Below, in pieces: positions 5,842 through 25,957 of a DNA stretch of 64,000 bases. Location of the stretch: positions 1 to 64,000 of IMG/VR virus record IMGVR_UViG_3300050020_000030; one strand, given 5' to 3'. The position numbers and the translations under genes were made by a program. The notes beneath the pieces were generated by a model. It saw only the letters and a program-made list of their open reading frames with translations. It was not told the DNA's origin and did not search any database. The DNA comes from a virus. Every line of letters starts with the position of its first letter. The first letter of the stretch is position 1.

Positions 5842-6219
5842 ATGTATACACTCAGTTTGGTACACAATACGGCCTTCCCCGAACCGGGAGAATTTTTCAA
5901 CAACACTAAGAATGGCGGGGTTCTAACAATGTCTCGTCTTCGTCGAGAAGTCTTGCGGGCGAGTGTCGAAGGTCTGGAAACTTTCGAGGATAAAAAGTAT
6001 CGGGGCTGGATTCATCCCTATGTCCTGCACGACGTTCTTAATGATGCCTCCTTTAACGGATTAACAGATATTATAGCACGCGGAGAGAAGAAAGACAAAG
6101 CATTTGTATCAATAACTCTTGCGGGAGTTGAGTTTATTTCAACGACAGACGTTCGGGTCTCTACCTTTATCTTCGGTAAAAACTCTGATCCCCTCGATCT
6201 TAAACTTATCTACATCTAA
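5842..6219 (+). CDS. early protein made of a central major-capsid-protein segment
   Basis: 125 residues. Residues 1-27 are unique. From residue 28 (LTxSxLR) to about 120 the protein follows residues 156-262 of the phage's major capsid protein, including HDVLNDASFNGLTDI against HDIYNDASFNGLTDI in the capsid. Over residues 49-78 the two share 20 of 30 positions. A seven- to nine-residue loop of the capsid is missing, and the copy ends where the capsid continues to its last 65 residues. So this is a domain-sized capsid piece rather than a complete capsid paralogue, with a good ribosome-binding site (AGAAGGAAAAGGAAA) and an intact frame. It could co-assemble into or block capsids; not tested. Confidence 0.75.
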   Translation: MYTLSLVHNTAFPEPGEFFNNTKNGGVLTMSRLRREVLRASVEGLETFEDKKYRGWIHPYVLHDVLNDASFNGLTDIIARGEKKDKAFVSITLAGVEFISTTDVRVSTFIFGKNSDPLDLKLIYI

Positions 6220-22866: not shown

Positions 22867-25034
22867 ATGGCCTATACTCCCGCAGTAAATACAGTTACCA
22901 GTGGTAACTTTCCTAACGCTTTGGCCGTTTACTATGAGCGTAAAGCAATTCCAAACCTTAAAGCAAGCACTCCGTTTCTGGGGGCAACAAAGCAGTGGCC
23001 TTTGCCGAGGCACTCCGGTAACGTGATTCAGTTCTTCTCCTATAACCTCTTGGGCGCGAATGTCTCTCAGACCACCGAGGGTTTCGTGGGTTCTCCTGTT
23101 CCCGAGAGCGCAGTCAAGATTCAGGCGACAATCGGTGAACTTGCTGCTTAACAGCTAACTGGCCGATATAAAATTCCGCTAAATCGGTGAACATCTGTGG
23201 TATAATGGTGTTATGCCAACAGAAAATACCGAGCTAACTCAAATGAAAGATCACACAAAAGCGTATATGGCCGGAGTCCTCGACGGAGACGGTCATCTAG
23301 GAATTCAGAAACACGGGCAGTATAGTCCTAGTATACAGGTTTGTGGTGAGTCTAAATCGCTTATGGAATGGATCGTCCTTAACTTTGGGGGATCAATCCG
23401 CAAAGAAAAAATCAAGAGCGGTAAAGACTTCTACAAATGGATACTCTACGGGAAGAATTCTCAAAAAGATTTCGTAGAAGGTATCACACCTTTTGTGTTC
23501 ATAAAAAGATCACAAGCAGAGATTCTCCAAGAGTTTCTTAATATCAATCGGAGTGACTACGATCCGGAAAAGAGAGAATCTTACTATCTAGCAATTAGGA
23601 AAGCTAGATCATTGAGCAGCGTAGAGACTGACATGCGGAACAAACTAGACAATAAACTGGCTTGCGCTTATGCGGCTGGTCTGGTTGATACAGACGGACA
23701 CATAAATTTATACACGGTTCCCTCGGGAAAGTCTAAAGGTAGCATACGAACAGGAATAGAAATCGTAAATATCTATAGACCTATTCTCGATGAGCTAGCA
23801 AGGCAGTTTGGGGGTCACGTAAGGAAAAGAACAGAAGACGGGTACAAGACTCGGTATCAGTGGTTCGTTACTGATATGAAATCCGAGGAAAAACTCCTTC
23901 TGGCGATGCTCCCTTATATGATTGTGAAGAGAGAAAAAGCAGAAAATCTTCTCAAGCACCTCCGAGAAAGACTTAGTTTGAAGATACAGCCCGAACTCAT
24001 AGGTGACTATGAGAGTGTCCCAGTGGGAACGCTGAAGACCTAAACACGTTTGCAATACGCTGATTACACCAATAGCTCTGACCTGTTCTTGGATACGGCG
24101 ATTGACGACAAGGGCGCACTTAGCTCTTTGGCCGAGGAAATGAACTATCGCCTCGCCCTCACCCTGAATCTGTTGGTCTCCACGGCTGCGGATTCTCTGA
24201 ATGGCATCGACGGTTCTGTGAATCAGCAGTTGGCAGTCGGTACCTATCTTACCGCGTCGAACCTGCGTACCATCGCTCAGCAGCTTGAGTCGGTGAACGT
24301 TCGTCCGTTCGAAGCCAACACCTACGCCGGGGTTATCAATCCTCTGGTTGTGCATGATATCTATAATGACGCCAGCTTCAACGGCCTCACGGATATCATG
24401 AAGCGCCAGTCCGATTCTTCGAAGAAGTTGTTCGAAGGTCTGGATCGTGACGCCCCTCTGGAGTTCGCGGGTATTAAGTTCAAGAGCACCACAACCGCAT
24501 CGGCTGTGACCATCTCTTCGAACATTTACTATCCCACGTACATCTTCGGTGACGATGCTCTTCTAAGTATCTTCCTCGGTCCTAATCCGGCTGACAAGAA
24601 CAAGAAGAACTACTCACTGAATATCCAGATGGCTCCCGAAGGCGGCTCGGTCTCCGACCCGGCTCGCTTGATTGGTGAACTTGCTGCTTAAGCAGCTAAT
24701 CGGCCAATCTAAAACTCAGCTATATCGGTGAACCTCTCCTAAAATTTTAGGAGACAATACCGAGGGAAGACTAGGGAAAGTACCTAAACCTAGAACCCGT
24801 AACGACTAATACGCTGGGCCTTCGAAAGAAGTGAAGATAGAGTCTGAGCTATACGGCGACGTATAGAGTGTCTCCGGGGTGATCCGGGGGTGGATTAAGT
24901 CCACGATGACCTGAAAAGGCATCTCCAAAACGCAACTGGGGTGGATTTCATATAACTGTAAGTTCGTGGTCACGCCTCCGCCCGGAGTAGTTATGAGGGC
25001 ACGCAAGCTCCTGAGCCAGACGTCTTCAAGCTAA
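22867..25034 (+). CDS. major capsid protein, three exons split by two group I introns
   Basis: Exons are 22867-23136, 24053-24676 and 24939-25034, giving 329 residues. Each junction falls between codons. Joined, they restore the conserved ATIG-QYADYTNSSD and RLIG-GWISYNCKF regions known from the HK97-fold, N4 gp56-like capsid family. Unspliced, the frame stops shortly after each 5' splice site (IGELAA and stop). Both 5' exons end in U, paired to G in the intron guide; both introns end in G. The third exon encodes the last 31 residues, ending QTSSS. Codon use is strongly biased as in other abundant virion genes. Pieces of residues 35-61 and 156-262 are copied in early genes 2332 and 5842. Splicing is predicted, not shown. 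Confidence 0.9.
23194..23223 (+). promoter_or_regulatory. P5 hairpin carrying promoter -10 and the endonuclease start codon
   Basis: TCTGTGGTATAA pairs with TTATGCC-ACAGA around a TGGTG loop, with one bulged A. The same bases contain an extended -10 (TGTGGTATAATG, TATAAT at 23201-23206) and the ATG at 23213. In full-length pre-mRNA the start codon is buried in the stem. A transcript starting near 23213 would lack the left arm and expose it. No good -35 is seen. Confidence 0.65.
23213..24043 (+). CDS. intron-encoded LAGLIDADG homing endonuclease
   Basis: 276 residues, monomeric two-motif type: YMAGVLDGDG at residues 18-27 and YAAGLVDTDG at 153-162. The aspartates D24 and about D159 are the metal-binding residues. 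Such enzymes cut intronless alleles at the intron insertion site and spread the intron by repair. The target should span the exon junction near capsid codons 86-96. The ORF lies wholly inside intron 1; its first codons form P4 and P5 strands, codons 138-143 form P7/P3, and codons 259-267 form P7'/P9. No Shine-Dalgarno sequence is positioned before the ATG, consistent with leaderless translation from the internal promoter. Confidence 0.9.
   Translation: MPTENTELTQMKDHTKAYMAGVLDGDGHLGIQKHGQYSPSIQVCGESKSLMEWIVLNFGGSIRKEKIKSGKDFYKWILYGKNSQKDFVEGITPFVFIKRSQAEILQEFLNINRSDYDPEKRESYYLAIRKARSLSSVETDMRNKLDNKLACAYAAGLVDTDGHINLYTVPSGKSKGSIRTGIEIVNIYRPILDELARQFGGHVRKRTEDGYKTRYQWFVTDMKSEEKLLLAMLPYMIVKREKAENLLKHLRERLSLKIQPELIGDYESVPVGTLKT
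24677..24938 (+). ncRNA. group I intron 2 of the capsid gene, compact and ORF-free
   Basis: 262 bases with a complete core. P1: exon GATTGGT (24670-24676) with GCCAATC (24703-24709), U-G at the splice site. P3: CTCAGC (24715-24720) with GCTGGG (24813-24818). P4: CGGT (24726-24729) with ACCG (24759-24762). P5: perfect CTCCTAAAA/TTTTAGGAG (24736-24753). P6: GGG/CCC (about 24764 and 24797). P7: GACT (24804-24807) with AGTC (24841-24844). P8: CTTC-GAAA-GAAG (24820-24831). P9: CTATAC/GTATAG (24849-24866). The last base is G 24938. Sequence near the 5' end (GAACTTGCTGCTTAA) and after P9 matches intron 1, so the two are siblings. Confidence 0.93.
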
Positions 25035-25042
25035 ACAAAACA

Positions 25043-25083
25043 AAGGACTTATAGTTTATAGAAAATATTTTCTATAAGTCCTT
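25043..25083 (+). terminator. long inverted repeat after the capsid gene
   Basis: AAGGACTTATAG (25043-25054) pairs with CTATAAGTCCTT (25072-25083) around an A/T-rich 17-base loop that is itself palindromic (ATAGAAAATATTTTCTAT). It lies 8 bases after the capsid stop. It may end capsid transcripts and insulates the next promoter, whose -35 overlaps its right arm. Confidence 0.55.
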
Positions 25084-25110
25084 GACTCAGTGAAGTTTTC
25101 GTGGTATAAT
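25082..25110 (+). promoter_or_regulatory. sigma70 promoter of the GIY-YIG gene
   Basis: TTGACT (25082-25087), 17 bases, TATAAT (25105-25110) with extended -10 TCGTGGTATAAT. It drives the endonuclease at 25205 with a leader of about 88 bases. Confidence 0.8.
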
Positions 25111-25204: not shown

Positions 25205-25957
25205 ATGTACGATATTTACGAATATACGAATCTAATTAATAACAAGAAGTATGTCGGGCAGAGTATAGATAAAGATACCCGGAGACGGCAGCACTTATAC
25301 GAGGCTAAAAGGGGTTCTACCTGTCCCTTTCATCGTGCCATAAGAAAATACGGAATAGATAACTTCTCTTTTAGAATTATTGAATCTGTAGATACTCAAA
25401 AAGGCGCTGACGATCAAGAAGACTTTTGGATAAACGAACTAGACACGCGAAGCCGGGATCGAGGATATAATCTCAGGGGTGGGGGGATAGCAGGTCTCTT
25501 AGCTGAAGAGAGTAAGCAAAAAATCAGTAATTCTCTTACTGAGTACTACTCCGATGAAAAGAACCGCGAAACTATTAGGGATTCCTTGAAGAATTACTAT
25601 GAGCAGAACCCGGATCGTGTAGAGAAGATACGGGAGGAGTCCAGAGAGAATATAAAGGAAAGAAAGAGAAATGACTTGGGTCAACTTCTTCCGTCTTCGG
25701 GTGTTCCCGTTCCCGAGAAGACTCCAGAGGAGAAAAAAGCTATTAATAAAAGAAAAAGCGAAATGATGCTTTCCAAGTCTCCCGAAGAAAAGGCTCGGAT
25801 CAGCAAGAAGTTAAGTGATGCCCAGAAAGCCAGATATGCTGCTATGACCCCGGAAGAAAAAGAAGCCTTTTGTAAAAGAAAACGAGAGATTTCAGTTGCA
25901 TATCACGCCAAAAAGAAATCAGGAATCCAATGCACAGTAGCCCAAGAAAATTCGTAA
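25205..25957 (+). CDS. free-standing GIY-YIG homing endonuclease
   Basis: 250 residues. DIYEYTNLINNKKYVGQS (residues 2-19) gives the GIY and YVG strands, followed by the catalytic RRRQHL arginine helix, a tyrosine and an NELDTRSRDRGYNLRGGG segment with the conserved glutamate nearby. The C-terminal half has repeated NUMOD3-like DNA-binding motifs (PEEKARISKKLSDAQKARY). It lies between genes just after the capsid gene and has its own promoter. It probably cuts a site in or beside the capsid gene of competing phages. Confidence 0.88.
   Translation: MYDIYEYTNLINNKKYVGQSIDKDTRRRQHLYEAKRGSTCPFHRAIRKYGIDNFSFRIIESVDTQKGADDQEDFWINELDTRSRDRGYNLRGGGIAGLLAEESKQKISNSLTEYYSDEKNRETIRDSLKNYYEQNPDRVEKIREESRENIKERKRNDLGQLLPSSGVPVPEKTPEEKKAINKRKSEMMLSKSPEEKARISKKLSDAQKARYAAMTPEEKEAFCKRKREISVAYHAKKKSGIQCTVAQENS

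Follow-up and report, generated by a model that had tools for sequence, protein, structure and literature searches.

The major capsid gene of the uncultured soil phage studied here is interrupted by two functional group I introns, a reading to which we assign a probability of about 0.9. The window, the whole stretch of DNA analysed, comprises bases 1–64000 of an 88,639-base IMG/VR virus record. Its capsid gene lies in three exons which, when joined, give 990 nt without an interrupting stop and encode a major capsid protein (MCP) of 329 aa. We infer splicing itself from the anatomy of the two introns. The features of the locus are as follows.

22867–23136, + strand: MCP exon 1, codons 1–90, 3′ end ...AUCGGU, matching PHROG 1357 (major head protein)
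23137–24052, + strand: group I intron 1, 916 nt, starting GAACUU and ending ...UUUG, placed by its core helices and by precise insertion relative to L005, L007, L008, L010 and L017
23162–23167, + strand: internal guide of intron 1, GCCGAU, forming P1 with exon AUCGGU (23131–23136), with U·G at the splice site
23174–23179, + strand: P3 5′ strand of intron 1, UUCCGC, by complementarity
23184–23232, + strand: P4–P5 of intron 1, with P4 strands UCGGU (23184–23188) and ACCGA (23228–23232)
23196–23206, + strand: extended −10-like motif TGTGGTATAAT in the P5 loop of intron 1, by motif
23243–24043, + strand: two-domain LAGLIDADG homing endonuclease ORF, 266 aa from the ATG at 23243, by Pfam, alignment, AF2 and Foldseek
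23618–23640, + strand: P6-3′ AGC (23618–23620), P7-5′ GACUG (23626–23630) and P3-3′ GCGGAA (23635–23640) of intron 1, inside the interdomain linker of the endonuclease
23987–24013, + strand: P7-3′ CAGCC (23987–23991) and P9 hairpin (23996–24013) of intron 1, encoding the endonuclease C-terminal tail, disordered in the model
24053–24676, + strand: MCP exon 2, codons 91–298, 3′ end ...GAUUGGU
24677–24938, + strand: group I intron 2, 262 nt, no ORF, starting GAACUU and ending ...ACUG
24703–24709, + strand: internal guide of intron 2, GCCAAUC, forming P1 with exon GAUUGGU (24670–24676), with U·G at the splice site
24715–24866, + strand: core of intron 2, comprising P3 (24715–24720/24813–24818), P4 (24725–24729/24759–24763), P6 (24764–24766/24796–24798), P7 (24804–24807/24841–24844) and P9 (24849–24866)
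24939–25034, + strand: MCP exon 3, 31 codons and stop

A blind splice test, in which a splice-aware dynamic-programming protein-to-DNA alignment was guided solely by the protein of the intron-free relative L005, recovered all four junctions to the base, arriving at the same exon coordinates as an earlier sequence-only reading of the window, which had also correctly held that the reading frame is kept across the junctions. The joined protein contains the junction peptides IQATIGQYADYTNSSDLFLDTAIDDK and LIGGWISYNCK and matches PHROG 1357 with an E-value of 4.6e-15, compared with 2e-5 and 3e-4 for the separate fragments. Among named proteins it is closest to the major head protein of Tunturiibacter phage Tunturi_3 (35% identity). 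An AF2 model of the L005 capsid, examined for an HK97-type fold, was of low confidence (pLDDT 41.6). Both insertions are absent from the five close relatives named in the feature list, whose capsid proteins are 82–85% identical to that of the window and whose codons are joined exactly at the proposed junctions; in relatives the gene is a single 329-codon ORF. The same split gene with the same two introns is present in three further assemblies (L011–L013; four in all) and is therefore not an assembly accident. All three exons are conserved in L004, in which DNA identity to the window is 79–83% and protein identity 93%.

A search of the 88.6-kb record found no intact second MCP gene. Two short capsid-like ORFs on the + strand lie far from the capsid gene, one (2332–2649) matching residues 33–70 at 43% and the other (5842–6219) residues 148–240 at 41%; these are possibly capsid-derived fragments rather than an intact second copy, and matches to the latter outside the window phage are mostly loci already identified as capsid genes. 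Since an uninterrupted capsid gene with 60% identity sits in an Acidobacteriota metagenome-assembled genome (Candidatus Sulfotelmatobacter), the host of the phage is probably an acidobacterium.

Both gaps have the anatomy of group I introns, as the sequence-only reading had maintained, including its P1 helices of 6 and 7 bp, the U that closes each 5′ exon and the G that closes each intron. The P1 pairing exceeds chance, since other exonic T positions pair equally well with the same intron in 3.6% of cases for intron 1 and 1.6% for intron 2. In the 64 kb there are exactly two copies of each of the core motifs AAGATASAGYCYG and GACTRAYAYGC, one per intron, compared with expected numbers of 0.01 and 0.23, respectively. 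In intron 2 all helices are present (P3 CUCAGC/GCUGGG, P4 UCGGU/ACCGA, P6 GGG/CCC, P7 GACU/AGUC and P9), and the Rfam model Intron_gpI (RF00028) aligns end to end (24677–24866, model positions 1–253) with 46.3 bits (E 5.8e-10). For intron 1 only the 3′ part is matched, with 18.6 bits (E 0.11). The covariance-model check suggested earlier thus yields a match for intron 2 and a weak one for intron 1, both under the gathering score of 50, which is a curation threshold and not a defining property; sibling introns of the same gene pass it, reaching 63.8 bits. A scan of the whole window at E ≤ 1 yielded intron 2 and, beyond it, just one weak match of no relevance; intron 1 was not recovered.

The other half of the intron 1 core was located through the complementarity of P3 (UUCCGC/GCGGAA). 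Pairing is complete in P1, P3, P4, P6 and P9, whereas P7 (GACUG/CAGCC) has a single A·C mismatch at its second pair, a position that is A·C in two sibling introns and the isosteric G·U in four. The layout of intron 1 recurs in nine other large introns of the capsid gene in relatives, and in most of these P3 covaries completely (for example CCUUGC/GCAAGG, CUGUUC/GAACAG and UCUAGC/GCUAGA). In an alignment of the core helices P3, P4, P6, P7 and P9 from 17 sibling introns, 96.8% of the cells were paired and covariation was strong, with a score of 0.573 as against 0.167 ± 0.018 for shuffles and at most 0.116 for slid partners. This alignment omits the homing endonuclease gene (HEG) introns of L015, L044 and L063, in which P4-3′ and P6-5′ were not reliably placed by script, and has P4-3′ placed by hand in L060 and L065; these choices favour the structure somewhat, and the P3 and P7 columns are independent of them. 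The two window introns are 85% identical over their first 61 nt (P1–P2 and the start of P3), and because of these shared 5′ ends both unspliced ORFs end in GELAA*. For these 61 nt the L006 intron at codon 298 is the next best match, and the remainder of intron 1 resembles HEG introns from other sites. The simplest reading of the likeness would be a shared, possibly exchanged, guide module. Neither this kinship nor the sub-gathering Rfam scores featured in the sequence-only reading, which had also passed over the ORF in intron 1.

That ORF nearly fills intron 1 and encodes a LAGLIDADG homing endonuclease with the two motifs MAGVLDGDGH and AAGLVDTDGH and Pfam matches above the cut-offs (PF00961 and PF14528). 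Alignment to relatives makes the ATG at 23243 its most likely start, the mechanical ORF beginning at 23213. Its AF2 model (pLDDT 83.4, pTM 0.81) is matched best in Foldseek by single-chain I-CreI derivatives, monomerised I-MsoI and I-OnuI, and also by I-AniI and bI3 maturase; an IMG/VR search with the endonuclease as query returned identical copies only. Domains 1 and 2 occupy the P6 and P8 loops, respectively. Codons 126–133, the interdomain linker, double as P6-3′, P7-5′ and P3-3′, and codons 249–257, in the C-terminal tail, double as P7-3′ and P9. The model falls below pLDDT 50 in two stretches only, residues 125–133 and 248–266, which are the ribozyme-coding parts. The threading of the ORF through the ribozyme is shown jointly by base pairing, by covariation and by the protein model. 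Some sibling introns lack an ORF, and in others either one or both LAGLIDADG motifs precede P7-5′, a range compatible with stepwise acquisition of the endonuclease.

In the P5 loops of the introns in L049, L054, L060, L065, L068 and L069 a promoter-like motif of the type TTGAC...GGTGTGGTA recurs upstream of the endonuclease start, and intron 1 retains just its extended −10. Judging by this motif, a promoter in the P5 loop probably expresses the endonuclease of intron 1; across the region promoters are counted as often as in shuffles. Directly after capsid exon 3 lies a free-standing GIY-YIG endonuclease ORF (25205–25957, + strand), which is preceded by a sigma-70-like promoter (TTGACT-17-TATAAT, 25082–25110, 11/12 consensus) whose −10 region resembles that in the P5 loop of intron 1.

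Three other accounts of the locus deserve consideration. It is barely credible that the gaps are something other than introns, with the capsid protein made in separate pieces or by way of frameshifting, bypass or an intein-like process: the locus does present three separate ORFs as sequenced, and two short MCP-like ORFs lie elsewhere in the window, but both gaps carry a group I core, a P1 and the U/G boundaries, and relatives have the gene as one 329-codon ORF. An intein is excluded because the gaps hold in-frame stops, and frameshifting or fragment expression was rejected on account of these stops together with the group I core. It is also very improbable that intron 2 is active while intron 1 has decayed and no longer splices, leaving the capsid gene a dead or dying allele. 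The low Rfam score of 18.6 bits, a core split by the endonuclease and the A·C mismatch in P7, which could weaken splicing, speak for such decay; against it, no other core pair in P1, P3, P4, P6 and P9 is disrupted, nine sibling introns share the architecture and two of the siblings the A·C, the downstream exons are intact and conserved, and four assemblies share the allele.

Somewhat less remote, though still unlikely, is that splicing of intron 1 depends on its own LAGLIDADG protein, which would then be a bifunctional endonuclease and maturase. A core interrupted by two inserts of several hundred nucleotides and a weak P7 pair would suit such dependence, and the fold search also returned bI3 maturase and I-AniI, which is both endonuclease and splicing factor. 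However, the proteins that resemble the intron 1 product most in structure and sequence act purely as endonucleases (I-CreI fusions, I-MsoI and I-OnuI), and the fold is one that cannot separate the two roles.

If both introns are functional, as we favour, the exon end AUCGGU or GAUUGGU in the late transcript would pair with the internal guide to form P1, with U·G marking the splice site. A P7-bound guanosine would attack there, the freed exon would then attack after the terminal G of the intron, and two such ligations would yield the 990-nt mRNA for the 329-aa capsid protein. Intron 1 would be a mobile element, its predicted endonuclease cutting capsid alleles that lack the intron, at the insertion site or close to it, so that the intron may be copied into the cut allele during co-infection; the ORF-less intron 2 would be an immobile or trans-mobilised relative.

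An IMG/VR profile search identified 269 capsid relatives, of which the 80 kept form the basis of a census of introns. Roughly half of the relatives examined have uninterrupted capsid genes and the others contain one to six introns, so that the two in the window, described as uncommon in the sequence-only reading, are a modest number for this clade. L078 has six introns and seven exons (one of 18 nt) encoding 327 aa without a stop, L055 has five, and L063, L069 and L073 have four each. In the multi-intron loci independent Rfam matches coincide with the predicted introns, several of them above the gathering score. Mapped to window codons, the raw insertion positions number 34, but we refer to about 30 dependable sites in this ~1-kb gene because some census junctions are either wrong or imprecise by a few bases (the first intron of L018, which the script split in two, the first three of L072, L055 5298, L062 4899, L042, L064 4567, L063 4559/4819 and L074 4871). 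Sites cluster at nt 64–284 and 558–936 of the gene, and none was found in any relative in the ~270 nt between them (window-equivalent nt 285–557), both flanks of which are rich in sites. L073 and L068, with 98% identical proteins, have no intron positions in common, and L060 and L069, with 99% identical proteins, differ in one intron.

We tentatively propose, at somewhat less than even odds, that the capsid gene of this clade is a landing pad for introns, with about 30 sites, up to six introns and turnover that outpaces protein divergence. Introns would have spread partly by exchange of P1–P2 guide modules between sites in the same gene, and some LAGLIDADG proteins would have co-evolved with their ribozyme, using the catalytic core as interdomain linker and possibly acting as maturases.

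Capsid introns are known from other phages. The available text of one report describes a single major capsid intron in the Cluster J mycobacteriophage LittleE, with splicing proven by RT-PCR and N-terminal sequencing, and cites a capsid intron in lactococcal phage Tuc2009 (PMC3706429). Like the window gene, that of LittleE has a group I-like intron, with U at the exon end and G at the intron end, and a putative homing endonuclease; unlike it, this unrelated phage has one intron, and no core-threaded LAGLIDADG ORF is seen in that text (PMC3706429). The MCP of Zeta-group crAss-like phages, known from metagenomes, lies in five fragments and so offers a published precedent for several predicted group I introns in one major capsid gene; these are gut Bacteroidetes phages with four interruptions, and the accessible account, in contrast to ours, contains neither base-level junctions nor a census of sites across relatives (PMC7886860). 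The huge Jug phages (terL, nrdD) have intron-rich genomes with splicing supported by metatranscriptome reads and, as here, several introns per gene, but their infestation is genome-wide, whereas in the window phage Rfam group I matches are confined to the capsid gene (PMC12363816). Overlap of endonuclease ORFs with the ribozyme has been termed 'core creep', with T4 td/I-TevI and a Synechococcus lividus LSU LAGLIDADG in P8 as examples (PMC3073962), and Bastillevirinae introns overlap nuclease genes (PMC11878797). In intron 1, too, endonuclease codons double as P6, P7, P3, P8 and P9 strands; it differs from the core-creep cases in that its LAGLIDADG ORF encodes two domains, one in each of the loops P6 and P8, and the core segment between these encodes the interdomain linker (PMC3073962). 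Multi-intron capsid genes (in crAss-like phages) and endonuclease–core overlap are thus already published, whereas the intron density of the clade's capsid gene and the threading of the endonuclease appear to be new; in the open-access literature searched, we found neither a phage capsid gene with six introns nor a LAGLIDADG protein of two domains that has the core as its linker.

Near-identical viruses here carry up to six introns in a single ~1-kb gene that needs very high expression, and the clade forms a natural series for rates of intron gain and loss, target change and cost. In the threaded endonuclease, the same bases meet coding and ribozyme constraints in protein segments modelled as disordered. 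With up to six introns at about 30 sites, ordinary gene-finders would misread the gene, and in this soil group annotation is prone to render capsid genes as truncated pieces, with consequences for marker-gene surveys and structure prediction.

Several further observations were made in relatives. L006 has a 25-nt exon (1392–1416) between two group I introns, at codons 298 and 306. In L018 (4970–4982) a 10-nt insertion (TTATAATTTG) in a capsid exon just before the conserved IGGW causes a frameshift and a stop, for which an intron scar, an assembly error or something removed are candidates. Rfam abiF RNA matches lie near the capsid region in L068 (6928–6964, 37.8 bits, just above the cut-off) and L069 (8439–8475, 32.9 bits, below it).
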